IMG/VR virus record: IMGVR_UViG_3300025736_000071
Span: 1-38,890 of that record
Reading direction: 5' to 3' (one strand)
Origin: a virus
Length of the DNA stretch: 38,890 nucleotides
Shown: piece by piece, positions 18,251 through 37,326 of the stretch
Layout: every line of letters starts with the position of its first letter
How positions within the stretch are numbered: position 1 is the first letter of the stretch
Translations under genes and position numbers: made by a program
Notes under the pieces: generated by a model
The model's input: only the letters and a program-made list of their open reading frames with translations
Databases searched by the model: none
Told to the model about the DNA's origin: nothing

Positions 18251-18260
18251 TGATACACCT

Positions 18261-18446: not shown

Positions 18447-18573
18447 TCCATGTTTTATTTGATTTCCGTATCTTTTTCACTGACTTTATCGTGTAGCGCA
18501 AGAACATTAATTTAAATAGTATGACTCCTAAGACCACACAATAAAGTGAAAACTGCTGATCAAAATAGTCCAT
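18415..18573 (-). CDS. Small single-pass membrane protein, overlaps both neighbours
   Basis: 52 aa. ATG at 18573 lies inside the 3' end of the adaptor gene and has AGGAG 9 bases upstream. N-terminal MDYFDQQF, then a membrane segment YCVVLGVILFKLMFL (residues about 11-25), then a strongly basic tail (TIKSVKKIRKSNKTW). It overlaps the adaptor gene by 14 bases and the next membrane-protein gene by 32 bases. Membrane segment plus positive tail is compatible with a small holin or regulator of one. The gene is short and easily missed. Confidence 0.55.
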   Translation of the reverse strand: MDYFDQQFSLYCVVLGVILFKLMFLRYTIKSVKKIRKSNKTWNGAYHDKYKL

Positions 18574-19591: not shown

Positions 19592-19604
19592 TTCAATCTC
19601 CTAA

Positions 19605-19961: not shown

Positions 19962-19977
19962 CGCACCTCCTTACAGA

Positions 19978-20400: not shown

Positions 20401-20461
20401 CTATTCTCCTTTTTGGTTGTTTTTCAAGGTAACTTTCATACCTTCATGGTCATAAATCAAG

Positions 20462-20489
20462 GTAAGGGGAAGGAAAACCTCCCCCTTAC
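20462..20489 (-). terminator. Hairpin after the 321-aa virion gene, weak terminator
   Basis: GTAAGGGGAAGG and CCTCCCCCTTAC form a 12-base stem with one mismatch and loop AAAA, 7 bases past the stop at 20496. The T-run after it on the minus strand is poor, so partial termination or an mRNA end-protecting role after the abundant capsid genes is more likely than complete termination. Confidence 0.6.
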
Positions 20490-20495
20490 GAACGA

Positions 20496-21461
20496 TTATA
20501 AGTTAGATGATTTACCAGCTGTCCAGAAAATTACATCGCTTGTGGAACCTGCAGGGCTCAATACGCCTGTTGCAAGAATCATACCGATATAGCCTCTGTT
20601 TTCTGTTGCATCATCAAGCAAGTTTGCGTAATCACTTGTTGCTGCTTCACCTACTGGAATGACAAGTGCTTGGCTAAATCCAACTGCGCCAATGGCGGTA
20701 AGTGGGAATGCAAACGCTGTAAATCCTGTAGAATCAACATTAACTGTGATTGTTCCAGCTGTGATTGCTGTAATTGTTACAAGTTCGTCGTTCATTTCAA
20801 TCATGCCAAATGCTGATGGTACTTTGATACGTACTTTTTGGCCAACTGTGTAGCCATGAGCAACGGTCATTGTAATAACAGCGCTTGCTGCTTGTGTGAT
20901 TTTCGAAATTGAACGATGTCTTGGATAGAACTGAGGATTGTAAGCGATCTTTCTAATCGACCCAGTTGTACCCGCAACGATTTGGTCCATATAATCAAGT
21001 GAGAAGTCTGTTCCGCTAAAGGTATTGTTACCAATAGTGAAATCATAACCACCCAATTGTTGTGCGCCTGTTACGTCGATAAAGCGAACAACGTCACCAA
21101 CTTGCAATAATGCTGTTGATGCAATTGTTGCTACAGGAATTGCAGCCGCCGAAACGTCTGTAAGTGTTGCATCAATTGCGCCAACTGGACTATCAGAAGT
21201 ATCAATAAGCGTGAAACCAGCATGAGCTGCGATTGAATCGATAGCTAATGTTTGGTCTGCGGCTGGATGATAATAAACTAAACCAAGTCCAGCTGCCATT
21301 CCACGCTGCCAATAGTACTCTGTACCATGGTTTTGTGTTCCTGCGTCTGCTTCTGTGTAGTTTATAACGCGCATCCAGTCAATATCGGATCTTAATTTTA
21401 AGGTAACAGGTGAACCCGTACCTACAAATGTACCCGATTGTACGATTGTATTTTCTGCCAT
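20496..21461 (-). CDS. 321-aa virion protein next to the major capsid gene
   Basis: 321 aa directly after the major capsid gene (12-base gap). The N-terminal half (IVQSGTFVGTGSPVTLKL, DIDWMRVINYTEAD, YYWQRGMAAGLGLVYYHP) is beta-rich; residues about 185-290 are the beta-module also seen in the 118-aa protein at 19605 and in the tail hub. No hydrophobic segment. Its position right behind the capsid gene and before a weak terminator suggests a product made in quantity: a minor capsid, head-decoration or major tail-surface protein. Not recognised further. Confidence 0.65.
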   Translation of the reverse strand: MAENTIVQSGTFVGTGSPVTLKLRSDIDWMRVINYTEADAGTQNHGTEYYWQRGMAAGLGLVYYHPAADQTLAIDSIAAHAGFTLIDTSDSPVGAIDATLTDVSAAAIPVATIASTALLQVGDVVRFIDVTGAQQLGGYDFTIGNNTFSGTDFSLDYMDQIVAGTTGSIRKIAYNPQFYPRHRSISKITQAASAVITMTVAHGYTVGQKVRIKVPSAFGMIEMNDELVTITAITAGTITVNVDSTGFTAFAFPLTAIGAVGFSQALVIPVGEAATSDYANLLDDATENRGYIGMILATGVLSPAGSTSDVIFWTAGKSSNL

Positions 21462-21473
21462 AATATTTCCTTA

Positions 21474-22424
21474 CTACGCTAATGTCGCACGAAGATTTGT
21501 TATCCACAGATCATTGGTAATTCGAGGAGCGGCCGCGAATTTGTAACCAAGTGTTGCGTTTTGAGCAAGAGGTCCACCTGCAATTGATGGTGGTCGATAG
21601 ATATATTGTGCGCTATATCCGTCTTGTTCGATCATTGCGTATGCTTCCATACCTGTTACGAAGACGTTCATGACATCTGCACCAAGATTGGATGCATTTG
21701 GTGAAATTGAACCAACAGATGACAAGAAGAAACGTACGTTTCCAATTGCGCCCCATTCACTTTCAAGCCCTTGACTTGCTGAAGGATATTGGTTTTTATG
21801 AATGAAACCAGTTACTTCATCAAGGTTACCAATAAGTTCAGTTGAACCCATTGCTATGTACGAATCGCGAGTTGGTGCGGTACCAAACTTATTTTGCGCT
21901 TCAATATTGCTAATAATTGTACGAGCATTGCTATTTTTCAATGCGCGAACAACTGTATCAACATCAGAACGTGTAATTTGTGTTGGGTTGTCACCGTTTG
22001 TACCACCTGTACAGTTAATAAACGATGCTGTTGATGCCAACATATCTCTTGTTAGTTCATCTTCAGTTTGACGTAACGATACGCCAAGACGATCTGTTAA
22101 TTCATTAAGAACAGGATCTTGGTTTTGTAATGTTACTTGTTCGTTGATATTGAGCCATGTTCCATAAAATGAAATCTTAGCATCAATATCTACAGCTGAA
22201 GGTGTTTGAGAAGGAGGCGTTGCCCCTGAATTTCCCAAAGGTACCATAGCGGTATCTAGGGCGTTATATCGTCTCATTCTGAGCGTTGTTCCACCGTTTT
22301 TAGGCATCATTTTTTTCATTGCCGTAAAACCATGAATCAAATCAGGTGTTGGTACAGACAAAAGCTTCAACGAGAAACTTTGTTGTACTGGTGCTGGCAT
22401 AATAGTTGTTGTTGTAAGTGCCAT
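21474..22424 (-). CDS. Major capsid protein, N4-gp56 type
   Basis: 316 aa. It shows the pattern of the N4-gp56 family: an N-terminal LLSVPTPDLIHGFTAM, KMMPKNGGTTLRMRRYNALD, ISFYGTWLNINEQVTLQNQD, LRQTEDELTRDML, the central FGTAPTRDSYIAMGS, and a late GYKFAAAPRITNDLWI. The full length is normal for this HK97-fold family. Shine-Dalgarno AGGAATTATT. It has its own promoter and a structured leader of about 130 bases (22425-22558), separating it from the scaffold unit, which fits the need for very high expression. Many copies form the icosahedral head. Confidence 0.87.
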   Translation of the reverse strand: MALTTTTIMPAPVQQSFSLKLLSVPTPDLIHGFTAMKKMMPKNGGTTLRMRRYNALDTAMVPLGNSGATPPSQTPSAVDIDAKISFYGTWLNINEQVTLQNQDPVLNELTDRLGVSLRQTEDELTRDMLASTASFINCTGGTNGDNPTQITRSDVDTVVRALKNSNARTIISNIEAQNKFGTAPTRDSYIAMGSTELIGNLDEVTGFIHKNQYPSASQGLESEWGAIGNVRFFLSSVGSISPNASNLGADVMNVFVTGMEAYAMIEQDGYSAQYIYRPPSIAGGPLAQNATLGYKFAAAPRITNDLWITNLRATLA

Positions 22425-22558
22425 AATAATTCCTATAAATGTGTTAAAGATTCACACAGTTACGTTGACGAAGCGTTCGTACGTCGTGGAATTGAGTTGC
22501 CGAAACTCTATACGACACGGGAATGGTTTGAAGGCGCGACCCTTCGATACGCACTATC
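22425..22558 (-). promoter_or_regulatory. Structured 5' leader of the major capsid mRNA
   Basis: No gene. Read on the minus strand it holds three short hairpins, GAAGG/CCTTC with loop GTCGCG, GAGTT/AACTC with loop TCGGC, and ACGAA/TTCGT with loop CGC, followed by AACACATTTATAGGAATT and the ATG. The segment is richer in G and C than its surroundings. It probably stabilises the abundant capsid mRNA or controls its translation. Confidence 0.5.
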
Positions 22559-22588
22559 AGTATAATGCAGAGACTTTAAGATTCACAA
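22559..22588 (-). promoter_or_regulatory. Promoter of the major capsid unit
   Basis: On the minus strand TTGTGA (22583-22588), 18 bases, TATACT (22559-22564), a good sigma70-like match. It lies downstream of the scaffold terminator and upstream of the capsid gene, so the capsid unit can be transcribed separately from the portal-scaffold unit. Confidence 0.65.
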
Positions 22589-22616
22589 TAAAAAATAATT
22601 GTTTGTCATTTTATGT

Positions 22617-22731
22617 TACGAGCTCGTAGATACTTCACCAGCTTTTCGTAGGGGAAAGTGTTATCACATACTGGAGCTCCGTTTTAAGTTTGTATTGAAT
22701 TCTAGGCATTAATTTACTTGCGAGCTCGCAA
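22617..22731. repeat. Three palindromes with a GAGCTC core upstream of the capsid promoter
   Basis: TACGAGCTCGTA (22617-22628), GGAGCTCC (22673-22680) and TTGCGAGCTCGCAA (22718-22731). The cores start at 22620, 22674 and 22722, that is 54 and 48 bases apart, in a gene-free, otherwise AT-rich stretch just upstream of the capsid promoter. They could be binding sites for a dimeric late regulator. No other function is evident. Confidence 0.55.
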
Positions 22732-22741
22732 ACGAATGCAT

Positions 22742-22781
22742 AAAAAAACACAGCCCCTCGTTTGGCTTGAGAGGCTGTGTT
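22742..22781 (-). terminator. Terminator after the scaffold gene
   Basis: Stem AACACAGCC(c)CTC with GAGGCTGTGTT, followed on the minus strand by seven T. It lies 46 bases after the scaffold stop and ends (or partly ends) the portal-to-scaffold transcript. Confidence 0.9.
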
Positions 22782-22826
22782 ATAAATGAATAGTCGCGGT
22801 TAGTGGGCGACTTTAATTAAAGGCTA

Positions 22827-23588
22827 TTAATAGTTCTTGCGTGCTGCTTGCATTTCAGCATATAACTGTGCTTTTAGTTCTGGAGTTAATCCATTCGCAA
22901 ATGCATTAGCATGTGACAATGGACTATTACCTTGTTGAGGTGACACAGTGGATACTGGTTTAGGTTTAGCCGCATTGCGCCGTACTATTTCACGTTCTTT
23001 TTCATGTGTATCTTCAACATGAATACCCAGTTTCTTAATTAAAGTATAGGCAGAAACAGCTTGGTTGTGCAAGTTCTTTGATGAACCAATTGTATTAGAA
23101 AGTTCTGGATATAATTCTTTAAGTGTTTGTAAGTTGTCTGGATTAACAACTTGTTCAAAGTCAGGATACTGTGCACGTATACGCGTTTCAACTAACTGTT
23201 CATTAAGCTTTTTAATCTTTTTATTAACCGAAGTATAATGTCGTCCTTCAACTAAATCATCAGCTGCAAGGGCAACCTCTTCTTCTTCTACATCTTCTTG
23301 ATATTGCTTGTGTTGTGGATCTTGTGGCTGATTCTTACGAAGGTACGCAAGCAGTTCATCGCGTTCTTTTTCAGCCTTAGCTTTTTCATCACGAAGTTTT
23401 TGGAAGTTGAGCTCTTTATTACTGACTTTAACAGGGCGTTCTTCAGGTTGCTCAACTGTTGAGTCAACTTCATCAACGTTTGAAGCTTCATCAAGTTGTT
23501 CAGCTAGTGTAGTTTCTTCTTGCTCTGTTTCTACGTTATTATCTTCGGTTGTTTCGATGTTGGCTTCTTCGTATTGTGTGCTTTCCAT
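22827..23588 (-). CDS. Scaffolding protein
   Basis: 253 aa, strongly acidic N-terminal third (ETEQEETTLAEQLDEA, VDEVDSTVEQPEERP), then a charged coiled coil (FQKLRDEKAKAEKERDELL), a middle acidic patch (QEDVEEEEVALAADDL) and a basic/polar C-terminus (NAAKPKP, LKAQLYAEMQAARKNY) that could contact the capsid protein. Low aromatic content, predicted helices, position directly before the capsid gene and after the portal: all are typical of a phage scaffolding protein that guides prohead assembly and leaves before DNA packaging. Start ATG at 23588 has AAAAAAGGAG upstream. No protease motif was seen. Confidence 0.8.
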   Translation of the reverse strand: MESTQYEEANIETTEDNNVETEQEETTLAEQLDEASNVDEVDSTVEQPEERPVKVSNKELNFQKLRDEKAKAEKERDELLAYLRKNQPQDPQHKQYQEDVEEEEVALAADDLVEGRHYTSVNKKIKKLNEQLVETRIRAQYPDFEQVVNPDNLQTLKELYPELSNTIGSSKNLHNQAVSAYTLIKKLGIHVEDTHEKEREIVRRNAAKPKPVSTVSPQQGNSPLSHANAFANGLTPELKAQLYAEMQAARKNY

Positions 23589-24097
23589 AAATCTCCTTTT
23601 TTGGTAAATAGATAGTCTAAAGACTCTTCTCCGTTTTCTTTCATTGCTAGTTTATCGTATGTTCCATCATAAAAATTAAGTGCGCTTGATAATGCTGCCC
23701 ACATATCACGAGGTACATCTTGTTTGTTGTTTATAAAGTAAAGACACCATGGTTTGCTTGGTATTGACCATAAGAATTCTAGTTCTCCGCTCTTATGATG
23801 ATATTTGTATACATTCTCATCAAAGTTGGGGGTTGGGCATGACTTACGAGCATAATAAAAAGTGCGTGTCATGTTTTCAAGCAGTTTTTCTTTTTTAAGC
23901 ATCGCAATTACATAAAAATCATTATGGTATGTAGCAGAATATGTACTTACACACTCTGCAACGTTCTTTTCATAGTCTTTATAGTTCAGTTCTGATTGTT
24001 CGCGTGGCGTAATGGCTTCGGCAGGCTTTTGTAGTAATTCATTAGATAGCTCACCAGCTGTTTTGGTTCTCTTCGGGTCTTTCTTCTGTGTTACCAT
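23531..24097 (-). CDS. Unknown 188-aa protein between portal and scaffold
   Basis: 188 aa from the ATG at 24097 (MVTQKKDPKRTKTAGELS). It has a basic N-terminus, then ITPREQSELNYKDYEKNVAE, HNDFYVIAMLKKEKLLENM, an aromatic-rich middle (FYYARKSCPTPNFDENVYKYHH, FLWSIPSKPWCLYF) and DMWAALSSALNFYDGTYDKL. Its 3' end overlaps the scaffold start by 58 bases and its 5' end overlaps the preceding small gene by 47 bases, unusually long overlaps that suggest translational coupling. Not recognised. Position suggests a head-assembly role. Confidence 0.65.
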   Translation of the reverse strand: MVTQKKDPKRTKTAGELSNELLQKPAEAITPREQSELNYKDYEKNVAECVSTYSATYHNDFYVIAMLKKEKLLENMTRTFYYARKSCPTPNFDENVYKYHHKSGELEFLWSIPSKPWCLYFINNKQDVPRDMWAALSSALNFYDGTYDKLAMKENGEESLDYLFTKKGDLWKAHNTKKPTSKQPKIIT

Positions 24098-24236
24098 ACT
24101 GCTCTTCTTTGGGTTTTTGACGCTTAACATGCTTTTTATAAGTTCCAGACGAATCGCTATCCGCAATAACTGGAATATTAAGAATTTCTACCGCTATTCT
24201 CTTAGTTTTTCCGTCTTTTCGTGGCATTACTGGCAT
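24051..24236 (-). CDS. Small basic/acidic protein in the head operon
   Basis: 61 aa from the ATG at 24236, 6 bases after AAAGGA. MPVMPRKDGKTKRIAVEIL opens the protein; the rest is charged and probably disordered (KKHVKRQKPKEEQYGNTEE). It ends at a TGA inside the next gene. A hairpin (24256-24298) lies just upstream. Function unknown; no membrane segment or motif. The ribosome site and tight packing between head genes support it as real. Confidence 0.55.
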   Translation of the reverse strand: MPVMPRKDGKTKRIAVEILNIPVIADSDSSGTYKKHVKRQKPKEEQYGNTEERPEENQNSW

Positions 24237-24255
24237 AGTGATTCCTTTAAAAATT

Positions 24256-24298
24256 GAGACTACCACGCAGCAATTAAAAACCACTACATGGCAGTCTC
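24256..24298 (-). other. Long intergenic hairpin in the head operon
   Basis: Read on the minus strand, GAGACTGCCATGTAG pairs with CTGCGTGGTAGTCTC (15 pairs including G-U), loop of 13 bases, followed by AATTTTTAAAGG. It separates two small genes after the portal. With only five T it is probably a partial terminator or an RNA-processing/stability element. Confidence 0.55.
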
Positions 24299-24304
24299 GT
24301 CTAA

Positions 24305-24490
24305 CTATTTATTAAGCGGTTTCATTTGACGTTTGATACCAGCTTTATCGCGGTTGATTTGATGATCAACTCCGCTCAATTTGTCGTCAATACCTTCTGG
24401 CATAATTGAACCATCTGTTGGAAATGGTTTCATTACCAATTCAGTAGGCATGTTTGCATGTTTGCCAGAGTAGAACTTTTTGCTTGCCAT
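24305..24490 (-). CDS. Small protein directly after the portal
   Basis: 61 aa from the ATG at 24490 (MASKKFYSGKHANMPTELVM), with AAAGG 7 bases upstream. The sequence continues PFPTDGSIMPEGIDDKLSGV and ends with a basic KRQMKPLNK. A longer frame upstream overlaps the portal and has no ribosome site. Soluble, no motif. Function unknown; small proteins of this size after the portal may help head assembly. Confidence 0.6.
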   Translation of the reverse strand: MASKKFYSGKHANMPTELVMKPFPTDGSIMPEGIDDKLSGVDHQINRDKAGIKRQMKPLNK

Positions 24491-24548
24491 GTGTGGCCTT
24501 TCTTTGGAAACTGCGAAGATATTTCTCCGCAAGGTTAATAATATACCT

Positions 24549-26645
24549 CTAACCGTTGACTGTTTGTCCTTCTGCAGCCGCCTCTTGCGGTTCGGGAGAA
24601 GTTGCTGCCGTTTCATTTTGCATCATTTTATCTGCTGCTATTTTCTCAGCAGACTTTGGTTTATCAACTGCTGTGTCTTCTTGTGCTTTAAGTGCGTTGC
24701 TTATCGAAACCAAACGTTCTATTTGTGTTAAGTCGATATCATCGATCTCTTTAAGTGTCTTAACTAATGTAAGCATTCCCATTTCACGATCTTTTTGTGC
24801 TTCAGCGCGTCGTTCAATAGCTAATGCTTCGTTCTCTTCTATTCTACTTATACGTTCAAGGCCAAGTCCCTTATCTGCAATAGCTCTTGCATGCGATAAT
24901 TCACTACGTGCTTGAATCTCTTGTAGCTCAACTTGCATCTTCATTTCTTCGACTTGTGCTTGTTTGTCATTTGCTGCTTTAACTGCGTCAGTAAGTTCTT
25001 TCTTATTCTGTACAGTTGAAGCTTCAAGTAAGACTTCATCAGGTATGTTGACGCCAGCTTCTTTAAGACTCAACAACTGAACGAATTGCATTTGACGTTG
25101 TGTTGTTGTATTAAGTCCATCTTCTACAGCTGCATCGTATATACCAAATGCTTTATTGAAGAATTGTGGTGCTGGTTCTTCTTCAATGATTCTCTTTACC
25201 TTGCCAGGTGCAAAATTAGTTTGAATCACATTAATAAGTAAGTTGCCAAGTTGTCGTTGAGATCTATCAAGTCCATCAAATAAACCCTGAAGTGTTACAA
25301 GTCCAGCTTCTTGTCGTAACTTAGAAAGTATTCCAGCTTTATCATCAACAGCACTACCAAGCAACTCTTCATTAACACCAGAAATGTTTTGCATTTCATC
25401 GCCCATACCTTTTGATACTTCAAGCATCGAAGGTGGAATTTGTGGGGGCTGAATTGGTTGTATGTCCTGTAAACTATAATTAGCATCAACAACAAGTGAT
25501 TTGCCTTGTCCTGTAAGGTAAACATCTTTAGGATTCTTGAGTGCACCCTCTTTATGTATCCAACCACCTGTTATTTGGCTTTCAAGCATATCAAGTTCAA
25601 TGATTTTACGGCGGTTATAAAGGAACTGAGAGTCCCGCAAACCACGAACCATGCCTTGTATTCGCCATTCATAGTAAGGTATTTGTGGGTTGTAATAACC
25701 AAAGACCGGTACAAATGGATACTTATCAATACCAAGTGGATTTGCGCCATCGTACATAACCTGATCTTGAACAACAATTGATAACTTAACAGTAGGAACT
25801 TCTTGATCAATAACAGTTACACGTGGATATAAATTTAAGAATTGACGAAGCGCATCATCTTCACCATTCCACTCCATCGTTTCACCAGTTTGAGCGTCAA
25901 CTAACATGCGTTGTGTACGTGAAGACTTATAATAGAACTCGTCATACGAAAGAAGGTCACTTGTTCCCGCATTCAAGTTTTCTGGCATATACGGAAACTT
26001 ACCATCACGATTGCTTAAAGTTGATATTGCTTCAATATCTTTCTTATGATCTGGAAGCAATGAAGCACATTCTTGTTTGCTTAAAAACGATCTCTTCCAT
26101 AAACCATTACAATCAGATAAGTCACTCTTCTTAAAAAATGGATCTATTAGGTAACTATTGTAAGAACAATTATCCACCTTAATATCACCTGAGATTGCAT
26201 CATTACGATAGTCTAGATACACCTGTAATAAATTCATTCCAGTTACAAGTGCACCCTCAAATGCATCTGATACCGTTTCAAGTACGTTATCGCGTTGATT
26301 ACTCCACATCATTACTTTTGTAAATTGTGATGCTGTGACTTCATCGGCATTAGAAACCGGTGTGGCAATTATTGACTTTCTACTCTGCCGTTGTTTACCA
26401 GATACCATGTTGATGATACGTCGTATGCGATTGAAATTAAATTGTTTGCGTTGATGTAGTGGGAGTGACCCATAGAACTCGTTCCATAAAGATTGGTCAC
26501 CCACGAAGAATCGACTGTCAATATCAGCTTGTTGCCAATAACTTTGATTCATTGTAACCGATTGACGATGAAAATTAGCCATTCTAGCTAGTACTTGATT
26601 AGGGCTATCCTCATTGTAACCAGTCCCAAGTTGCGGAGACACCAT
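24549..26645 (-). CDS. Portal protein, P22-like
   Basis: 698 aa, the usual size for P22-type portals. Seen: N-terminal QADIDSRFFVGDQSLWNEF, QFNFNRIRRIINMVSGKQRQ, a central VPVFGYYNPQIPYYEWRIQG with RGLRDSQFLYNRRKIIELD, IPPSMLEVSKGMGDEMQNIS, and LRQEAGLVTLQGLFDGLDRS. The C-terminal about 150 residues form a long charged coiled coil (AVKAANDKQAQVEEMKMQVE), which fits the barrel of P22-like portals. It forms the dodecameric DNA gate, contacts terminase and adaptor and is the first gene of the late operon. The start has GAGGGGAAG upstream and a promoter at 26700-26728. Confidence 0.9.
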   Translation of the reverse strand: MVSPQLGTGYNEDSPNQVLARMANFHRQSVTMNQSYWQQADIDSRFFVGDQSLWNEFYGSLPLHQRKQFNFNRIRRIINMVSGKQRQSRKSIIATPVSNADEVTASQFTKVMMWSNQRDNVLETVSDAFEGALVTGMNLLQVYLDYRNDAISGDIKVDNCSYNSYLIDPFFKKSDLSDCNGLWKRSFLSKQECASLLPDHKKDIEAISTLSNRDGKFPYMPENLNAGTSDLLSYDEFYYKSSRTQRMLVDAQTGETMEWNGEDDALRQFLNLYPRVTVIDQEVPTVKLSIVVQDQVMYDGANPLGIDKYPFVPVFGYYNPQIPYYEWRIQGMVRGLRDSQFLYNRRKIIELDMLESQITGGWIHKEGALKNPKDVYLTGQGKSLVVDANYSLQDIQPIQPPQIPPSMLEVSKGMGDEMQNISGVNEELLGSAVDDKAGILSKLRQEAGLVTLQGLFDGLDRSQRQLGNLLINVIQTNFAPGKVKRIIEEEPAPQFFNKAFGIYDAAVEDGLNTTTQRQMQFVQLLSLKEAGVNIPDEVLLEASTVQNKKELTDAVKAANDKQAQVEEMKMQVELQEIQARSELSHARAIADKGLGLERISRIEENEALAIERRAEAQKDREMGMLTLVKTLKEIDDIDLTQIERLVSISNALKAQEDTAVDKPKSAEKIAADKMMQNETAATSPEPQEAAAEGQTVNG

Positions 26646-26699
26646 AATATCTTCCCCTCATAGGCTGCTTCATTACTCTCTTATTGACTCTTTGTCCTT

Positions 26700-26728
26700 A
26701 TTTTAGAGTTACTGAGGGGTTATAGCAA
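26700..26728 (-). promoter_or_regulatory. Promoter of the portal-led late unit
   Basis: Minus strand TTGCTA (26723-26728), 17 bases, TAAAAT (26700-26705). It lies between the terminator of the early unit and the portal start; no other promoter-like sequence is as good in this gap. Confidence 0.6.
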
Positions 26729-26738
26729 GATTATTAAA

Positions 26739-26776
26739 ATAGAAAAAGGGCGAGTCGCAATTAAGGACTCACCCTT
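26739..26776 (-). terminator. Terminator of the tRNA/GroES early unit
   Basis: Minus strand AAGGGTGAGTC, 9-base loop, GACTCGCCCTT (11 pairs, one G-U), then TTTCTATTTT. It lies about 60 bases after the small membrane-protein gene and cleanly separates the early unit from the late unit. Confidence 0.93.
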
Positions 26777-26834
26777 AAGTAAGCAGTTACAAGTAAGACA
26801 ATTAAACTTGTACTGTGTCTAACATGCTTTTAAT

Positions 26835-26951
26835 CTATTTTTTCTTAGAGTCTTTGTAAAGCATATACGTTGCCAGCAATAAACTTATTGAGACTACGAC
26901 GACAACCATACAGTCAACAAAGAAGAGTACGTTGTGTTGAATTATTGACAT
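26835..26951 (-). CDS. 38-aa single-pass membrane protein
   Basis: 38 aa. ATG at 26951, preceded by GAGGAAAGAT; a longer frame starting inside the tRNA-Glu gene is not credible. MSIIQHNVLFFVDC, then a strongly hydrophobic run (MVVVVVSISLLLATYML, residues 15-31) and a basic end (KDSKKK). Last gene of the early unit, before its terminator. One membrane segment with a positive tail fits a small toxin-like or holin-like peptide, but nothing decides this. Being in the early unit argues against a late lysis role. Confidence 0.6.
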   Translation of the reverse strand: MSIIQHNVLFFVDCMVVVVVSISLLLATYMLYKDSKKK

Positions 26952-26965
26952 ATCTTTCCTCAATT

Positions 26966-26993
26966 TGGCGAGACCAGTGGAATTCGAACCCCC
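26966..26993 (-). other. Detached tRNA 3'-end fragment (T-arm, acceptor 3' half and CCA)
   Basis: Minus strand GGGGGTTCGAATTCCAC then TGGTCTCGCCA, which has a T-loop, an acceptor 3' half, a discriminator G and CCA, with no matching 5' half: upstream comes the complete tRNA-Glu. It would need a GAGACCA acceptor 5' half. Either a decayed tRNA or a copy of the 3' end of a host tRNA, as in phage attachment cores. Confidence 0.6.
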
Positions 26994-26998
26994 GTAAT

Positions 26999-27072
26999 TG
27001 GCATCCCGACACGGAATTGAACCGTGGCTCACAGCGTGAAAAGCTGTTGTTCTGCCACTAAACTACCGGGAC
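26999..27072 (-). tRNA. tRNA-Glu (anticodon UUC)
   Basis: Complete cloverleaf of 74 nt with an encoded CCA. Acceptor GTCCCGG pairs with TCGGGAT (G-U at both ends); anticodon stem ACAGC/GCTGT with loop TTTTCAC gives UUC; T-arm CACGG/CCGTG. Discriminator G as expected for Glu. It lies 5 bases after the stop of the zinc-ribbon gene and must be processed from that transcript. Confidence 0.93.
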
Positions 27073-27077
27073 ATAAA

Positions 27078-27338
27078 CTACATGCGCTTTAATTCAGCAA
27101 GTAACTCCGTAAGCAACATTTCTATACCAGCTAATGTTTCTCCTGAAGTTTCTGCTTTATCGGATATTAAATCAAGTGTATCGTTAGACTTTTTAATTTC
27201 GCGTAGAATTTTGTTTCCAACCGAAATGTCATCACAATTTGGACACTCATGAGTAACGCCATTATTACTAATATATATCTCTCTCGAATGGTTTTTGCAC
27301 CTATCGCACCAACTATCTTTTGTTTCGTTTTGTTCCAT
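27078..27338 (-). CDS. Zinc-ribbon protein with coiled-coil end
   Basis: 86 aa. Two cysteine pairs, CDRC (residues about 12-15) and CPNC (about 33-36), form a zinc-ribbon knuckle; the rest is a helical, leucine/isoleucine-rich segment ending LIxELLAELKRM-like. The start overlaps the stop of the previous gene (TAATG). Zinc-ribbon proteins of this size in phages are often transcription or DNA-interacting factors, but no partner can be named. Confidence 0.65.
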   Translation of the reverse strand: MEQNETKDSWCDRCKNHSREIYISNNGVTHECPNCDDISVGNKILREIKKSNDTLDLISDKAETSGETLAGIEMLLTELLAELKRM

Positions 27339-27583
27339 TAATCTTCCTCTGGATACATTAATTCTGGGTGAACAAGTGGTTTTCCTTCTTTTTCAAGGCG
27401 TCGATTAAGATGGATAAGATTTAATCTATTAATAAGAACACCTGTTTCCTTATCAACTTCTTGTTGTAACTTCATAGTTTCTTCTAAACTTTTGTAATAA
27501 CTTCTATTGTAAAAATACCTTCCCACAAAATAAATAAGTAAAATCGGTAAAAAAACTACTATTAATAAAATCTCTGTTTCCAT
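27338..27583 (-). CDS. Membrane-anchored coiled-coil protein
   Basis: 81 aa from the ATG at 27583, overlapping the previous stop (TGATG). N-terminal membrane segment (ILLIVVFLPILLIYFVGRYF, residues about 4-23), then a charged helix (YYKSLEETMKLQQEVDKETG) and a short acidic tail. An N-terminal anchor plus a periplasmic-type coiled coil is the shape of inner-membrane spanins, but no outer-membrane partner gene overlaps it, so this is only a possibility. Shine-Dalgarno GAGGAAGAT. Confidence 0.6.
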   Translation of the reverse strand: METEILLIVVFLPILLIYFVGRYFYNRSYYKSLEETMKLQQEVDKETGVLINRLNLIHLNRRLEKEGKPLVHPELMYPEED

Positions 27584-27945
27584 CAATCTTCCTCAATAAC
27601 GTGATCTATAGACTCCATAGGTAGCGACTTAGCTTTTGGATACCTACAAAATGAAATCATTGGGATACCTAGACCACCATCAGTCAAACTAATCATGATG
27701 GCATTTCTCCAATAGCCATGAATACTATCAAACCCAGGAATGTTTTTAGAATCTTTATGATGTTCATAATCAGCATGATTAATAAACCCACTTATATATG
27801 AAACTGCCTCTCTATATCTCCATGGATAGCAAATCTCATATGTATCGCTATACCATATGTCGCCATGTGGTGCTTCAATTGGACAACTATCATGCTTGAG
27901 TAGCTCATTTAAAGCATCATGGAACTCTTGCCTATTGATCTTCAT
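27583..27945 (-). CDS. Unknown 120-aa protein
   Basis: 120 aa. Rich in tryptophan, tyrosine and histidine: CPIEAPHGDIWYSDTYEICY, WRYREAVSYISGF, NHADYEHHKD, GYWRNAIMISL. No recognised motif. It lies between groES and a membrane-anchored gene and ends with TGA overlapping the next start, so it belongs to the same operon. Shine-Dalgarno AGGAAGAT. Confidence 0.65.
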   Translation of the reverse strand: MKINRQEFHDALNELLKHDSCPIEAPHGDIWYSDTYEICYPWRYREAVSYISGFINHADYEHHKDSKNIPGFDSIHGYWRNAIMISLTDGGLGIPMISFCRYPKAKSLPMESIDHVIEED

Positions 27946-27954
27946 ATCTTCCTA

Positions 27955-28242
27955 TTAAACTATTATTCCAAGCAGTTCATCTTCTTTAAATATCAAGTAA
28001 TCAGCACCATCAAGATTGATTTCTGTTCCAGAAAACTTGCCAAATAAAACATGGTCATCTTTTTTGATACTAATAGGAACAATACCATTGCTTGTAATGC
28101 GACCATTTCCAACTTCTACTACTAATCCGATCTGTGTTTTTTCTTGAGCTGCATCTGGAATAAACAAACCACTTGCTGTTTTTTCTTCTGTTTCCATTCT
28201 CTTAACTAAAACTCTGTCATATAACGGCTTGATTGTTCTCAT
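27955..28242 (-). CDS. groES: GroES-type co-chaperonin
   Basis: 95 aa, the normal length of bacterial GroES. N-terminal PLYDRVLVKRMETEEKTASG with the mobile-loop region GLFIPDAAQEKTQ, then GLVVEVGNGR, a KKDDHVLFGKFSGTEI segment and the closing DGADYLIFKEDELLGII. It would cap the host GroEL ring and help fold phage proteins, as gp31 of T4 does for its capsid protein. No GroEL gene is present. It is expressed from the early unit, surrounded by tRNA genes, so it would accumulate before the capsid protein is made. Confidence 0.95.
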   Translation of the reverse strand: MRTIKPLYDRVLVKRMETEEKTASGLFIPDAAQEKTQIGLVVEVGNGRITSNGIVPISIKKDDHVLFGKFSGTEINLDGADYLIFKEDELLGIIV

Positions 28243-28263
28243 TTCGATCTCCCTTGTAAGGCA

Positions 28264-28288
28264 GTCTGCTCAGATAATCTGAGCAGAC
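28264..28288. other. Perfect inverted repeat upstream of groES
   Basis: GTCTGCTCAGA, 3 bases, TCTGAGCAGAC, ending about 20 bases upstream of the groES start region. No T-run follows on either strand. It could be a regulator-binding site or a hairpin that separates tRNA processing from groES mRNA. Confidence 0.5.
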
Positions 28289-28418
28289 AAATTGATTAAC
28301 GCTTTTGAAGATGAGCTTACTAAATTCTTTTACATTTTTAATATCAATTAAGATGCCATTTGATTTCTACATATATTCCTCCAATGTTAATTGGTGAAAC
28401 ATTCAAATATACAAAACT

Positions 28419-28494
28419 TGGAGCTGGCGACTGGATTCGAACCCGCGACCTGTTGATTACAAATCAACTGCTCTACCAACTGAGCTACGCCAGC
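28419..28494 (-). tRNA. tRNA-Thr (anticodon UGU)
   Basis: Complete 76-nt cloverleaf with encoded CCA. Acceptor GCTGGCG/CGCCAGC, D-arm GCTC/GAGC, anticodon stem GTTGA/TCAAC with loop TTTGTAA giving UGU, T-arm CGCGG region with TTCGAAT. All standard positions (U33, A37) are kept, so it should be functional. It reads ACA codons, which are frequent in AT-rich phage genes. Confidence 0.95.
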
Positions 28495-28522
28495 ATTAAC
28501 ATCTATAATTATTCTTGTTAAC

Positions 28523-28633
28523 TTAATGCGGATATGCTTCTGATGCTAGACGTAATAAGCAGCGAGCTGCCCCTTGCGCCAATGAATACTTGAACAGTTG
28601 GCTGTAGCTGGTAACCAATCCAACCAGAAGCAT
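28523..28633 (-). CDS. 36-aa small protein
   Basis: ATG at 28633 with GGAG 6 bases upstream, starting 15 bases after the stop of the previous gene. Sequence begins MLLVGLVTSYSQLF and continues YSLAQGAARCLLRLASEAYP. Hydrophobic N-terminus and an amphipathic helix. The ribosome site and position in the operon support it, but it is short and no relative is recognised. Confidence 0.4.
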   Translation of the reverse strand: MLLVGLVTSYSQLFKYSLAQGAARCLLRLASEAYPH

Positions 28634-28647
28634 ACAAATCTCCAGCT

Positions 28648-29082
28648 TTATACCAGTATCTCTATTATGCTCTTTTCTTTCAATTCGATTAGCAAGTCAA
28701 ACTGCTTCTTTGTCATGCCGTTCTTATCAAATGCGTATTCAAAGTTTAACAGCTTCTTAATCCACTTAACGAACTGCTCAATGCACACATGTAGATGGCG
28801 TAACCGATATGAAGGATCAGAGTCTCGACGGAGTTCCCTTAAAATGGAGGAAATATCGATAACTGTAAGCGATCTTAAAGATACAAGCGTGCCATCCTTA
28901 TATCGTAACGGTATTAGATTAGTAGAGGATAAGTATTTGAACTCTACTTCAAATCCATCTTCGTCTACTTCTTCTGACCAATATTGAAATAACCCCAAGG
29001 TTGGACTATTAAGTATGGCCTCACCATTAGCGGCAATTATATCGCGTAACTTTAGTAACTCTTCAGTTGTCATCTTCTTCAT
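28648..29082 (-). CDS. Unknown 144-aa early protein
   Basis: 144 aa with AAAGGAGAG in front of the ATG. MTTEELLKLRDIIAANGEA opens a helical part; the middle has EVDEDGFEVEFKYLSSTNLI and RYKDGTLVSLRSL; the C-terminal third is helical and basic (RLRHLHVCIEQFVKWIKKLL). No family recognised. It is one of a string of early genes interleaved with tRNAs and shares the leader TTTAAAGGAGAGATC with the gene at 29099. Confidence 0.65.
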   Translation of the reverse strand: MKKMTTEELLKLRDIIAANGEAILNSPTLGLFQYWSEEVDEDGFEVEFKYLSSTNLIPLRYKDGTLVSLRSLTVIDISSILRELRRDSDPSYRLRHLHVCIEQFVKWIKKLLNFEYAFDKNGMTKKQFDLLIELKEKSIIEILV

Positions 29083-29098
29083 CGATCTCTCCTTTAAA

Positions 29099-29344
29099 CT
29101 AGCTTATTACTTCTATCTCATCGTCATGAGTTGTACACAAGTTCATTAAATCAAACGCATCGCAAAATAACAGCATTAACTTACCCGAAGCGGTTTCAAA
29201 TTCTTCTATCGAATCTATTATACCACTAGAAATATCATCACATTCTCTAATTACATGTAACTTGTCACTTAATCTTCGTCCTGAATCTACAACCTCTTGC
29301 TTTACTTTATTCAACAACAAAGTTCTTTCGCAAAAATCGCACAT
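29099..29344 (-). CDS. Unknown 81-aa early protein
   Basis: 81 aa, start ATG after AAAGGAGAGATCT. An N-terminal CDFC pair is followed by a helical acidic protein (LLLNKVKQEVVDSGRRLSDK, IIDSIEEFETASGKLMLLF) and a further cysteine near the end. It is too small for a named family. It is placed directly downstream of the aberrant Cys-like tRNA and before the 144-aa gene. Confidence 0.6.
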   Translation of the reverse strand: MCDFCERTLLLNKVKQEVVDSGRRLSDKLHVIRECDDISSGIIDSIEEFETASGKLMLLFCDAFDLMNLCTTHDDEIEVIS

Positions 29345-29373
29345 AGATCTCTCCTTTAAAGTTCGGCAGGTGT

Positions 29374-29444
29374 GGGGACTAGCAGGATTTGAACCTACAA
29401 CCTCTTGTTTGCTCCAAGTGTTCTTCCGTTTGAACTATAGCCCC
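29374..29444 (-). tRNA. Aberrant tRNA, probably Cys-like (GCA), possibly non-functional
   Basis: Acceptor GGGGCTA/TAGTCCC, D-arm GTTC/GAAC, T-arm GTAGG/CCTGC with TTCAAAT. The anticodon arm has only four clear pairs (CTTG/CAAG) and loop GAGCAAA, so reading GCA puts A instead of the invariant U at position 33. No CCA is encoded (ACA follows). It may be a decaying tRNA, or one with a non-decoding role. The identity is therefore uncertain. Confidence 0.6.
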
Positions 29445-29450
29445 ATAAAC

Positions 29451-29526
29451 TGGCGGAACTGGCGGGAGACGAGCCCGCAACCTCTTGATAGACAGTCAAG
29501 CGCTCTACCAATTGAGCTACAGCTCC
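29451..29526 (-). tRNA. tRNA-Asp (anticodon GUC)
   Basis: 76 nt with encoded CCA and discriminator G, as for Asp. Acceptor GGAGCTG/CAGTTCC, anticodon stem CTTGA/TCAAG with loop CTGTCTA giving GUC, T-arm GCGGG/CCCGC. Unusual: U at position 37 and T-loop CTCGTCT, lacking the usual TTCGA. Only one base separates it from the stop of the ribbon-helix-helix gene, and 6 bases from the Cys-like tRNA. Confidence 0.85.
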
Positions 29527-29527
29527 A

Positions 29528-29797
29528 TTAATCTTCCTTTGGTAACGATTCTGTGATTGCATTAACAATCCACAGATTACGCGAGACTCTACCTGAGTAT
29601 TTCTTACGATCAGCATCTACTCTATCTAAAAGGACTTTGGGTAACCTTAAAGTAAGCCGATGATATTCTTCTATCTGTTTCAACTCAGACAAAGGTATTA
29701 AAGGTGGTGTTTTTAAAAACTCCTTTGCAAGCTCTGGATTCTTAGCAAGGAAATCATGGATACCTTGATATACAACGTTGATGTTCTTGTCTTTCAT
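29528..29797 (-). CDS. Ribbon-helix-helix DNA-binding protein
   Basis: 89 aa. C-terminal half HRLTLRLPKVLLDRVDADR followed by RVSRNLWIVNAITESL is an Arc/MetJ-type ribbon-helix-helix: one beta-strand with alternating residues, then two helices. The N-terminal 45 residues (GIHDFLAKNPELAKEFL) are helical and may be a partner-binding part. It probably acts as a dimeric regulator. It stands between the candidate small terminase and two tRNA genes. Shine-Dalgarno AAGGGAAGA. Confidence 0.7.
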   Translation of the reverse strand: MKDKNINVVYQGIHDFLAKNPELAKEFLKTPPLIPLSELKQIEEYHRLTLRLPKVLLDRVDADRKKYSGRVSRNLWIVNAITESLPKED

Positions 29798-30422: not shown

Positions 30423-31502
30423 TTAGTGTGCTGTACATTCTTTAATAACAAGCACATCGAATATTCTACTAAGATACGCCTTCATTGCTTCTTTACCAAT
30501 GATTGCTTCCATTTGTTGGTACGCTTGGCTATCGCAGTATTTAATAAACTTTTCTGCTTCTGATTTTATATCTATTGGTTGTGTTTGTACGGGTTCCCAC
30601 ATTTTATGTGAGTTAACTGCACGCAGTGCTACGGATTTTGTGTTAGGAAGTGAACTGGAACTGGTCGAATTGAAAGAGGGATTAGATTTTTTAGTTACAA
30701 GCATCGGCGCTCCTTTTGGCATTTCATAAACAAGTGCTAACTTTTTCGACCAGCTCCAGTTCGGAGAAAGTCCATGTTGTTTAGAGTATCTCAAGCAGCC
30801 TGAGAAAAACCAGTTAAACTGATTTCTTATACCTGAGGTGGAGTTAAACTGGTATGCGACTTCATCAATTACATCGTCTGCGAATGCTGAAAGTTTTATT
30901 TGTCCCCATTTTGTAAGAGGAATACCTTTAAGGTTACGAATAGATTTTGAGATAGGGTTTTCGTGATCTTGATTAAGTGAGATCTTACTGATAAGCATAT
31001 TTTGCTCGAGAAGACTGTGCATGCTACGTGTGGTCTCCTTTCCACTTGAAACTTGTGGGACGGGACTTATTATAATATTTCTTTTTATCCCTATTCCGTG
31101 AAGACTATAATATTGTGTCAACAGTGCCACGGAAAGCGCTTTGAATGCATCTATCAGAAAACTGAGCTGATGGCGAACACGATGAGAGCGAAAGAAAGAC
31201 GAAATCTTATACAGACATGTCTTCATATGTCTGTAGTTACTAAGGATCAAACCTTCACTCTCTAAATACTGCAATAACTTGTTGCAATATTGTCTCGATA
31301 TCCCAATTCGCTCAGCTAAGGCTGATTGACTTATCCAAATCTGTTTACACGTCATTGAATAGGATACCAAAATATTAAATAATTTCAATGTGACAGGATT
31401 TAATCTCTTAAAATAGGAAACTGCACTTTTTCTTATCTCGCTTTTAGGCTGTATATCAAGTGTTTCGAAAAACTGCTTACTTTTTCTCTTTTTTATTTGC
31501 AA
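30423..31502 (-). CDS. Replication-initiator-like winged-helix protein
   Basis: 359 aa from a TTG at 31502 with the strong site GGAAAGGAG; an ATG (31520) and another TTG (31544) upstream lack such a site, so the TTG is preferred. Residues about 30-100 hold a winged helix: KLFNILVSYSMTCKQIWIS, then SALAERIGISRQYCNKLLQY and LESEGLILSNYRHM, as in plasmid and phage replication initiators and helix-turn-helix loaders. The middle and C-terminal parts (NQFNWFFSGCLRYSKQHGLS) are not recognised. It is the only replication-like gene on this strand. No helicase motif was seen. It may bind a phage origin; a transcription regulator is the alternative. Confidence 0.6.
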   Translation of the reverse strand: MQIKKRKSKQFFETLDIQPKSEIRKSAVSYFKRLNPVTLKLFNILVSYSMTCKQIWISQSALAERIGISRQYCNKLLQYLESEGLILSNYRHMKTCLYKISSFFRSHRVRHQLSFLIDAFKALSVALLTQYYSLHGIGIKRNIIISPVPQVSSGKETTRSMHSLLEQNMLISKISLNQDHENPISKSIRNLKGIPLTKWGQIKLSAFADDVIDEVAYQFNSTSGIRNQFNWFFSGCLRYSKQHGLSPNWSWSKKLALVYEMPKGAPMLVTKKSNPSFNSTSSSSLPNTKSVALRAVNSHKMWEPVQTQPIDIKSEAEKFIKYCDSQAYQQMEAIIGKEAMKAYLSRIFDVLVIKECTAH

Positions 31503-31602
31503 TATTCTCCTTTCCTGCATATAATACTTAAGCAATATTCTCAAAGAGGAAGGCGAGGCGAAGCATATAACGTCTCGTCTTTTTCGTTTTATACTATTTC
31601 AA

Positions 31603-31947: not shown

Positions 31948-31982
31948 GAAAAATGCAACTCTCAAATCCCAAGGAAAATCTC

Positions 31983-33444: not shown

Positions 33445-33642
33445 ATGATAACTAAAAAAGATGTTAGCAGATTAACCATAGATATACCAAAAGAAGACCA
33501 CCGTGCACTTAAAGTATTTTGTGCTCAGTCTGGTAAAAGTATGGCTGATGTAATCAGAGCTATAATTAATAAAAAAATACAAGGATTTAGCGACCTGCAT
33601 AGAATAATGATAGAAGATAAGAAATTTTGGGAAAAAAAATGA
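33445..33642 (+). CDS. Ribbon-helix-helix DNA-binding protein
   Basis: 65 aa. SRLTIDIPKEDHRALKVF is a typical ribbon-helix-helix strand and helix, followed by SGKSMADVIRAIINKKI, the second helix, with a lysine-rich end. Similar to CopG/ParG-type regulators and antitoxins. Its ATG follows the TAG of the previous gene directly and its TGA overlaps the next ATG (ATGA), so the three genes are coupled. As no obvious toxin follows, a regulator of this operon is the simpler reading. Confidence 0.7.
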   Translation: MITKKDVSRLTIDIPKEDHRALKVFCAQSGKSMADVIRAIINKKIQGFSDLHRIMIEDKKFWEKK

Positions 33643-34145: not shown

Positions 34146-34184
34146 GTTGATAAATCTCTTTTCCTTTTAGAGAGATTTATCAAC
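34146..34184 (+). terminator. Long hairpin between two early genes
   Basis: GTTGATAAATCTCT, an 11-base pyrimidine-rich loop, AGAGATTTATCAAC: a perfect 14-base-pair stem 3 bases after the stop at 34143. No T-run follows (TGACAATTTCC), so it is at best a weak terminator; it could instead be an RNase-processing site or a protein-binding site before the INT_rpt gene. Confidence 0.55.
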
Positions 34185-34219: not shown

Positions 34220-35935
34220 ATGCACTATAGCAATCATCCTCGTCTGAAAAAAGTTTTTAAATCATTTGAAGACGCAAGAGATTATGTAAGAAGATATAAA
34301 TTGCATAATACAGATGACTGGAATATATGGCTAAAAATATATCGACCTGATGATATCCCTTCAAGTCCATGGACAATTTATAAAGACCAAGGCTGGAAAG
34401 GTATTCCTGACTTCTGCGGATTTAAAGCTAGACAAGGAGGAAGTAAAAAACGCCAATACTTATCATTTGAAAAAGCACGCGAGTATGTAAGAACTAAAAA
34501 TATTAAAAGCAAAACAGAATGGGACGAATGGTCTTCTTCTGGCAAAAGACCTACAAACATACCAAGCAATCCTCGGCAGACGTATAAAAACAATGGATGG
34601 ATCGGAATGCCAGATTTTTGTGGCTTTATTTATACAAAATCAAAAACAGGCATCGTAAGAATATTCCTAACATTTCAAGAAGCATGCGAATACGTAAGAA
34701 CACTCAATTTGCAGAATTTCACTGAGTATAAACATTGGAGCAAAACTAATCGTCCGGGTAATATCCCATCTAGCCCTTCGACTGTGTACCGAGATCAAGG
34801 ATGGTTAAGTTTTAAACATTATTGTGGCTGGAATGCACAGCCTCGAATTAAAAATTTTGTTAATTTCGAAAAAGCTAAAGAGATCATACAGTCGTTTAAA
34901 CTTAAAAATTATGATGAATATTCAGAATGGATAAAAACCATGCGACCAGGGAATGTTCCAAGCACACCAGGCGTAATATATAAAGATGAAGGATGGGCTG
35001 GTATTCCTGATTATTGTGGCTATGGAAAGAAGAGAAAAGGCCGCAAGAAAAGAAATGGAATAAGATTTATGCCATTCAAAAAAGCACGTGAATATATGCA
35101 TTCATTAAATCTTCTTTCAAGCACCGACTGGAACAGTTGGTCATTATCAGAGCGTCCAGTTGGAATTCCAAGCCGTCCAGACAGAGTTTACGCAAGCGAT
35201 GGATGGATCAGCTGGACAGATTGGATCGGATGTTATCACGGGAACTTAGGAAAACAATTAGACAGTAAATACAAAGGAAGTGAACCAATGTTTTTTAACA
35301 GAATCAAAAAGAATATAACTAAAGAAGAACCAAAGCCTGAAGAAAATAAAGAAAAAGTAGAGAATGGATTAGAAGGTCTTATTAGGAAAAACAACCTAAT
35401 GACACTCAAAGAAGCGTCTGATACATTCGATATCAATCTAAAAACTATTCAATACTGGACGACTCAGTCAAAAATACTACCTAGATACAAACTTCCTGGA
35501 TCATGCTATTTAGTAAAAAAAGAAGATGTAGAACAAATCATATCAACGCAATATCCACGCAATGAGAAACAAGTTATAACTGAGAAAAATCAAGAGCCTG
35601 TAACTATTAAAGAAGAACCTATTGTCGTTAATCCCGTTCAAAAAGAAACGTGTTCTGAACCAACATATATACGAGTTGTCGGAATACTCATTAACAAATT
35701 AGATAATATGCAATCCGCCTTGATACAAGGAACCGGAAATGCAGAATCTATGAATAAATTCCTGGGGTTATTATATACTATTCATGAAGACATGATCGAG
35801 CTTAACGATGAAACAGTTATATATACCATAAGCCAACGATGCCCACAGTTTGCAGAAGCGCTTGAATTAATGAGTGAATACACGGTAATTATTAAAACAA
35901 TCCAAGATGCAATAAGAAATATAAAACTTAGATAG
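34220..35935 (+). CDS. Five-repeat INT_rpt protein with excisionase-like helix-turn-helix
   Basis: 571 aa. Five tandem units of about 54 residues (residues 15-68, 82-136, 151-204, 215-268, 285-338) share the pattern FxxARxYVRxxxL, a W in the middle, RPxxIPSxPxxxYKDxGW and a final FCGF/IGC: this is the phage-integrase repeat unit (INT_rpt) family. Such repeats normally extend integrases and other DNA enzymes, probably to bind DNA. Residues about 393-440 (LMTLKEASDTFDINLKTIQ, YWTTQSKILP, then YLVKKEDVEQII) form a MerR/excisionase-type helix-turn-helix. No tyrosine-recombinase catalytic residues are present. The C-terminus is helical. A repeat array of GGGAATTT and the ERF pair follow directly. 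Likely a sequence-specific DNA-organising protein. Confidence 0.8.
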   Translation: MHYSNHPRLKKVFKSFEDARDYVRRYKLHNTDDWNIWLKIYRPDDIPSSPWTIYKDQGWKGIPDFCGFKARQGGSKKRQYLSFEKAREYVRTKNIKSKTEWDEWSSSGKRPTNIPSNPRQTYKNNGWIGMPDFCGFIYTKSKTGIVRIFLTFQEACEYVRTLNLQNFTEYKHWSKTNRPGNIPSSPSTVYRDQGWLSFKHYCGWNAQPRIKNFVNFEKAKEIIQSFKLKNYDEYSEWIKTMRPGNVPSTPGVIYKDEGWAGIPDYCGYGKKRKGRKKRNGIRFMPFKKAREYMHSLNLLSSTDWNSWSLSERPVGIPSRPDRVYASDGWISWTDWIGCYHGNLGKQLDSKYKGSEPMFFNRIKKNITKEEPKPEENKEKVENGLEGLIRKNNLMTLKEASDTFDINLKTIQYWTTQSKILPRYKLPGSCYLVKKEDVEQIISTQYPRNEKQVITEKNQEPVTIKEEPIVVNPVQKETCSEPTYIRVVGILINKLDNMQSALIQGTGNAESMNKFLGLLYTIHEDMIELNDETVIYTISQRCPQFAEALELMSEYTVIIKTIQDAIRNIKLR

Positions 35936-35938
35936 CTT

Positions 35939-35998
35939 GGGAATTTTATGTCAAGACATGGGAATTTGACGGGAATTTTTTTAAAATAAAGGGAATTT
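35939..35998 (+). repeat. Four helically phased GGGAATTT repeats
   Basis: Copies at 35939, 35960, 35971 and 35991, with starts 21, 11 and 20 bases apart, that is close to multiples of one helical turn. They fill the gap between the INT_rpt gene and the first ERF gene; the last copy overlaps the ERF ribosome site. Candidate iteron array or operator for the upstream DNA-binding protein. The first copy precedes a 13-codon open frame (MSRHGNLTGIFLK) ending before the ERF gene. Confidence 0.7.
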
Positions 35999-36544
35999 AT
36001 GGAAAACGCTCCAAACAAACCTGCTGTTAAAGAGAATACTTTGACACAAACATTTATCTACGACCAAGCACGAATCGAAAAATATTTAAAATATCATGAA
36101 AATAAAAACTTCTTTTCAAATACAAGATCAAAAGATATTGATAAAATCGTAGAGGCAAAAATAGGATTTAAAAGAGCATGTCCAAAGCTTATAAAAGATC
36201 AACATTCTGGAACTGGCACTGCAAAATATCAAACATTCGGCGCAATGCTTGCAGTAATATTTGAACCGATGGCTGCCAATGGACTAGACTTCTCCCAGCT
36301 ATTACATGTGTATGATAAAACATCATACGTTGTCACAGAGCTTATGCATATTAGTGGACAATACATTCGTTCTGTTACTATGCTTCCTCCATATGCAGAA
36401 TCAATGTTAGTAAACGTTGTGAAGACGGGTAATGATATGAAGGCATACGGAGCAGCATCTTCATATTTGAAACGATACGCACTTAAATCAATATTAGGTA
36501 TTGAACCCGATAATGACGATTACGACGGGAGCTACCAAAAATAA
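35999..36544 (+). CDS. ERF-family single-strand annealing protein, copy 1
   Basis: 181 aa. The ERF core is seen: FKRACPKLIKDQHSGTGTAKYQTFG, EPMAANGLDFSQLLHVYDKT, VVTELMHISGQYIRSVTMLP, then the signature TGNDMKAYGAASSYLKRYAL and LGIEPDNDDYDG. These correspond to the conserved GYxSAxTYxxRYxLxxxxGI...DDD pattern of the family. ERF proteins pair complementary strands during phage recombination and genome circularisation. Shorter than many members; ends soon after the DDD motif. It is followed by a second, divergent ERF-type gene. Start AAGGG. Confidence 0.85.
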   Translation: MENAPNKPAVKENTLTQTFIYDQARIEKYLKYHENKNFFSNTRSKDIDKIVEAKIGFKRACPKLIKDQHSGTGTAKYQTFGAMLAVIFEPMAANGLDFSQLLHVYDKTSYVVTELMHISGQYIRSVTMLPPYAESMLVNVVKTGNDMKAYGAASSYLKRYALKSILGIEPDNDDYDGSYQK

Positions 36545-36564: not shown

Positions 36565-37326
36565 ATGGAGAGCAGTTTTGACTTTGAAAAACAGCTGAAG
36601 TTCTTTGAATTACTTGAAGCAGTGATCGCCAAAAAGGTGGAAGCTGCACTGTCTGAACCAACAGACGAACCTTATGAATCTGAAAAAACAGATGAAATAT
36701 CAGCAGCACTCGCAGTTTCACAAGGTGAGTTTCTTGTAGTAAGAAATAATCGAACCAACCCATATTTCTCAACAGAGTACGGTGACCTGGATCAGATTAT
36801 GAAAGCAATAAGACCTTCGCTTGTTAAGAATGGCATAAGTTTAACACAGCAGCTCAAATTTAACGATGGTGCAATGATTCTAGCAACACGGATACGACAC
36901 AATAGCGGACAATGGATCGAGACGCGTGCACGAATTTTACCGTCAAAAAATGATGACCAAACATTTGCATCAGCTTTGATGTTTATGAAGAGACATTCTG
37001 TTGCTACATTAGTAGGAATTACAATTCCTGATGATACATACGATGACGATGCAGAAGTTCAAATGATCGGCGCAAGAAATATTATCGCCAAAGGTCCATC
37101 TAACAAGTATAATCCTAGAGAGCAGTCTTTTGAGCCAATAGGCAAGGATCAGCTAGAAGAACTTGAATGCGAACTCGCAGAATATCCACATATTGCAGAA
37201 GAAGTTTTGGATAAAATGAAAATCCAAAGCCTTGCTGACCTTCCAAAATCAAGATTTAAAGTATCGATTGCACGCGTACGTGCTATAAAATACGCACTCG
37301 AGAACTCAGATCAAAAAAAACAATAA
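36565..37326 (+). CDS. ERF-family protein, copy 2 (divergent)
   Basis: 253 aa. N-terminal helical extension (residues 1-55), then the ERF pattern: FLVVRNNRTNPYFSTEYGDL, SLVKNGISLTQQLKFNDG, LATRIRHNSGQWIETRARIL, and the signature region SALMFMKRHSVATLVGITIP with a following DDTYDDDAE. The lysine/arginine-rich C-terminus (ELAEYPHIAEEVLDKMKIQS) has its own helical part. It is clearly related to but distant from copy 1. The two could act as a heteromer, or one may be a regulator of the other. Start AAAAGGAG. Confidence 0.8.
   Translation: MESSFDFEKQLKFFELLEAVIAKKVEAALSEPTDEPYESEKTDEISAALAVSQGEFLVVRNNRTNPYFSTEYGDLDQIMKAIRPSLVKNGISLTQQLKFNDGAMILATRIRHNSGQWIETRARILPSKNDDQTFASALMFMKRHSVATLVGITIPDDTYDDDAEVQMIGARNIIAKGPSNKYNPREQSFEPIGKDQLEELECELAEYPHIAEEVLDKMKIQSLADLPKSRFKVSIARVRAIKYALENSDQKKQ

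Follow-up and report, generated by a model that had tools for sequence, protein, structure and literature searches.

The DNA analysed here is a window of 38,890 bp from an uncultured virus of bacteria, in which a short repeat array directly precedes a DNA-recombination gene. The array occupies a 63-bp intergenic gap (35936..35998) between the stop codon of a gene for a 571-aa protein (34220..35935, + strand) and the ATG of ERF1 at 35999. Four exact copies of the 8-mer GGGAATTT lie in this gap, all on the + strand and in direct orientation: copy 1 at 35939..35946, copy 2 at 35960..35967 (starting 21 bp past copy 1), copy 3 at 35971..35978 (11 bp past copy 2), and copy 4 at 35991..35998 (20 bp past copy 3). 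An earlier sequence-only reading of the window had reported this arrangement, and exact matching reproduces it in full. An all-A/T stretch (35974-35990) lies next to the repeats, and a small palindrome, ATGTC-AA-GACAT (35948..35959), which may be a chance occurrence, sits between copies 1 and 2. The likely ERF1 ribosome-binding site, AAAGGG, begins just ahead of copy 4 and runs into it (start region AAAGGGAATTTATG). No promoter or terminator was found at the array in a consensus scan.

ERF1 (35999..36544, + strand) encodes a predicted ssDNA-annealing protein (PF04404, E 1.7e-14; phrog_2324, E 1.1e-23) and is followed by a second ERF gene, ERF2 (36565..37326, + strand), so that the pair of ERF genes described earlier stands on matches to both. 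ERF2 has orthologs among relatives identified by their capsid protein, at up to 49% identity; ERF1 shares 22% identity with ERF2 and looks like an extra, diverged ERF copy. The + strand operon, which starts at 31953 and ends near 37.5 kb, is tightly packed, with gaps of at most 20 bp, and its only two long gaps flank the 571-aa gene, 76 bp before it and 63 bp after it. The 76-bp gap contains a strong A/U-rich hairpin (34146-34184; 16-bp stem, RNA z-score -5.3); since no T-run lies behind it, it is perhaps a processing or attenuation site. Elsewhere in the window, positions 5042-7801 encode a tail-like protein of 919 aa, with many repeat units of 99 and 120 nt.

The array is a real, non-random direct-repeat element, far beyond chance expectation. 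GGGAATTT is the single 8-mer in the whole window with at least three non-overlapping copies per 63 nt, and its sole exact copy outside the array, the fifth, is at 11679. Order-3 Markov windows of the same length (n = 150) contained a mean of 0.1 8-mers with three such copies and none with four. The sequence outside the 8-mer differs from copy to copy, so the copies do not stem from a recent tandem duplication, and this favours selection acting on the 8-mer. As a word, GGGAATTT is not special across viruses; triplets with gaps of up to 25 nt were counted in 84 stretches of IMG/VR, and the same word reversed, as a control, gave 38. Approximately 795 kb of loci fetched by protein homology (L193-L268) yielded a single case of four 8-mer copies within 63 nt, built of TCCACTCC and located inside a predicted ORF (L210).

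The four copy starts also share one face of the helix, as had been proposed, with R = 0.978 at 10.5 bp/turn. Two of the three spacings correspond to two helical turns and the third to a single turn. The probability of such phasing is 0.005 under random placement and rises to 0.017 when helical repeats anywhere between 10 and 11 bp are allowed, values that are indicative only because the phasing was spotted post hoc.

The upstream neighbour is a protein with five basic INT_rpt repeats (pI 9.8; window 34247-35239; PF14882 above cut-off, repeats counted by eye and in the model), a predicted excisionase/MerR-like winged helix-turn-helix (HTH) at about residues 385-451, and an acidic helical tail. 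PF14882 and HTH_17 matches uphold the repeats and HTH that the sequence-only reading had described. For the winged HTH, the match to HTH_17 exceeds the cut-off, that to TIGR01764 (excise) falls below it, and phrog_66, annotated as "excisionase and transcriptional regulator", is matched as well. Over its full length the protein is modelled with low confidence (pLDDT 63.7). In VIA alignments, the winged-HTH fold superposes on pSK1 Par bound to centromere DNA (Z 6.5, 53 residues, 2.0 Å), on RacA (Z 6.1), on DNA-bound BldC (Z 5.7), and on Pukovnik Xis (Z 5.5); scores at this intermediate level are frequent among small HTH folds, so the class assignment comes mainly from the family matches. Sequence similarity to BldC is low, at 18-20% across the domain. 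By those family matches, the HTH is of the excisionase/BldC class, and the 571-aa protein is a credible candidate reader of the array. A possible derivation of the acidic C-terminal tail from the small gene upstream of the ERF genes in relatives was also considered and rejected, as the two have no significant similarity.

Excisionases, including Apl of phage 186, bind direct repeats spaced one helical turn apart; Apl recognizes sets of five and seven repeats at 10-11 bp spacing and serves as both an excisionase and a promoter repressor (PMC7498355). BldC molecules line up head-to-tail along direct repeats whose core is AATT (PMC5859096). The locus described here combines multiple direct repeats with an excisionase/MerR-like winged HTH encoded in the same element, and our preferred interpretation, to which we assign a probability of roughly 0.4, is that the array is an operator of the ERF genes read by a protein of this class. 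A phage-encoded excisionase/BldC-type winged-HTH protein, most likely the 571-aa protein, would bind the four repeats cooperatively and in one orientation, bending the DNA, and the bound reader would repress transcription into the two ERF genes or tune it in some other way. Copy 4 overlaps the ERF1 ribosome-binding site, so a protein occupying this copy would extend as far as the start codon. Several observations count against this interpretation: no promoter-like site lies at the array, two of the three spacings are two turns, the fold scores are only intermediate, the 32 capsid relatives have neither the array nor the 571-aa protein, and the 8-mer is nothing special among viruses. A role in excision is unlikely, since the window yielded no tyrosine integrase. 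Binding of the array, the identity of its reader, and control of the ERF genes by it are all inferred from the layout, because no close relative carrying the array was found. Among the roles put forward in the sequence-only reading, an operator read by the neighbouring protein thus retains support through the class of its HTH, while the iteron origin and the recombination-loading site do not.

The search for relatives covered 45 capsid-related loci, from which 32 records, all distant relatives and some of them fragments, were examined. None of the 32 contains a pair of GGGAATTT copies or a homolog of the 571-aa protein. An ERF gene is present in 13 of the 32, close behind its neighbouring gene, and no repeat array lies upstream of any of these genes, which leaves a recombination-loading site unsupported. 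An ERF-matched stretch in two of the capsid relatives (L244 and L245; records G010 and G025) carries one in-frame TAG, which may point to TAG recoding in that lineage. One locus (L193) is 100% identical to the window over 11.4 kb; it spans 18111-29545 only and stops short of the array region. Searches of IMG/VR with peptide patterns recovered no close relative of either ERF1 or the 571-aa protein, and for the latter the GTDB genomes gave none either. The viral contigs with GGGAATTT triplets belong to unrelated families, several of the triplets being tandem or coding and one lying beside IstA/IstB-like transposase genes, and no homolog of the 571-aa protein occurs at these loci. Distant ERF matches were confined to two loci from the GGGAATTT pair search (L051 and L094). 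Arrays in genome contigs are mostly tandem repeats, with one chance-like 21/11 case (L349), and none lies near ERF or INT_rpt genes. The genome and viral scans together returned no locus homologous to the array region. A separate family of phage contigs (L034, L047, L120, L139, and others) carries CCCTACGTGGGAATTTG repeats at spacings of 19, 35, 19, and 23, several of them just before a start codon, and these are possibly another operator array.

The same operon encodes a second potential DNA-binding protein, a basic 65-aa ribbon-helix-helix (RHH) protein (33445..33642, + strand), and RHH dimers bind runs of 7-8 bp boxes. Its matches are to ParD, an Arc-like repressor, CopG-like proteins, and ORF56 copy control, all weak and below curated cut-offs, and its gene lies earlier in the operon, not adjacent to the array. 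A precedent is omega/ParB of pSM19035, which binds heptads and requires four or more of them without gaps (PMC9499535). The parS site and other RHH heptad arrays resemble the present locus in having an array of short boxes, here with an RHH protein encoded nearby, and the count of four copies would suffice; however, pSM19035 heptads are contiguous, whereas the GGGAATTT copies are separated by 3-13 bp. We therefore consider an operator read by the RHH protein unlikely.

The repeats could instead be repeated ribosome-binding sites, an alternative raised in the sequence-only reading, or could have arisen neutrally, by accident, as the leader sequence drifted. Copy 4 does occupy a Shine-Dalgarno position, and pairing of the ERF1 site with the anti-Shine-Dalgarno sequence (-5.3 kcal/mol) is within the range of the phage's other genes. 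Copy 1 is a doubtful second case, as it precedes an ORF of just 13 residues (35948-35989). Copies 2 and 3, in contrast, have no ATG start downstream; copy 2 is followed by no more than an in-frame TTG. GGGAATTT is absent from the other gene starts examined in the phage. Copy 4 thus doubles as part of the ERF1 ribosome site, but ribosome sites do not account for the array; as the chance occurrence of four copies is also remote, we rate both forms of this explanation as quite unlikely.

Control could also act on RNA: a protein with affinity for RNA or ssDNA would recognize the repeats in the leader of the ERF1 mRNA, and this protein could be ERF1 itself, in autogenous fashion, for which T4 gp32 is the model. 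The overlap of copy 4 with the ribosome-binding site would suit such a mechanism, as would the A/U-rich leader, whose folding is unremarkable (z -1.15). At the RNA level, however, the phasing of the copies would be meaningless and would have to be a coincidence, which counts against this improbable scheme.

We hold it to be similarly improbable that the INT_rpt repeats themselves engage successive 8-mers along one helix face in a modular form of DNA recognition. INT_rpt relatives in large phages occur with a GIY-YIG domain (L260), with helicase and methyltransferase domains (L254 and L255), and, by eye, with an HNH-like domain (L258); L262 is also among these loci. Such partners suggest a DNA-targeting role for INT_rpt. 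None of the large-phage INT_rpt loci has a four-copy array, so the array here need not have the repeats as its reader. In a 147-kb viral contig (L256), several stretches of INT_rpt lie no more than about 6 kb apart in total. A single INT_rpt unit is modelled with high confidence (pLDDT 94), and VIA/Foldseek searches of one library returned no convincing match to a solved structure. Should INT_rpt prove to read the array, a nuclease- and helicase-associated repeat of large phages would have been turned into a regulator of transcription or recombination.

Origin iterons of the lambda or plasmid type combine multiple direct repeats with A/T-rich DNA, and origins of O-type initiators usually lie in or beside the initiator gene. 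The iteron-type origin, one of the roles offered in the sequence-only reading, is very improbable: although direct repeats at roughly two-turn spacing beside the all-A/T stretch at 35974-35990 resemble such an origin, the array is only 63 bp, much smaller than those iterons, is absent from the relatives examined, and has no adjacent initiator gene, the O-like gene (30423-31544; weak matches) lying at a distance of 4.5 kb and on the minus strand.

If the preferred interpretation, an ERF-gene operator read by a winged-HTH protein, is true, the array would be a compact operator controlling phage ssDNA-annealing recombinases and, together with the neighbouring gene, would offer a direct route to what INT_rpt repeats bind. 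If it is wrong, the array is still a well-defined, non-random, unexplained leader element. The kind of array is already known from the operators of Apl, Xis, and BldC. Several features set the present locus apart from them: Apl sites comprise five to seven repeats at 10-11 bp, compared with four at 21/11/20 here, and Apl and BldC sites are spaced by one turn or less, whereas only one of the three spacings here is a single turn. BldC is a 68-aa Streptomyces protein whose repeats are closer together than those of this array, and, unlike in the Apl/Xis systems, the candidate reader runs to 571 aa, includes five INT_rpt repeats, and is encoded in a window in which no integrase was found. The array nevertheless shares with the Apl operators (phage 186 att and pR-pL) and the wider Xis/RDF family short direct repeats on one helix face in a phage control region and, in the candidate, a reader that would be an excisionase-class winged HTH; with BldC operators, it shares direct repeats with an AATT core and a candidate MerR-like winged HTH.
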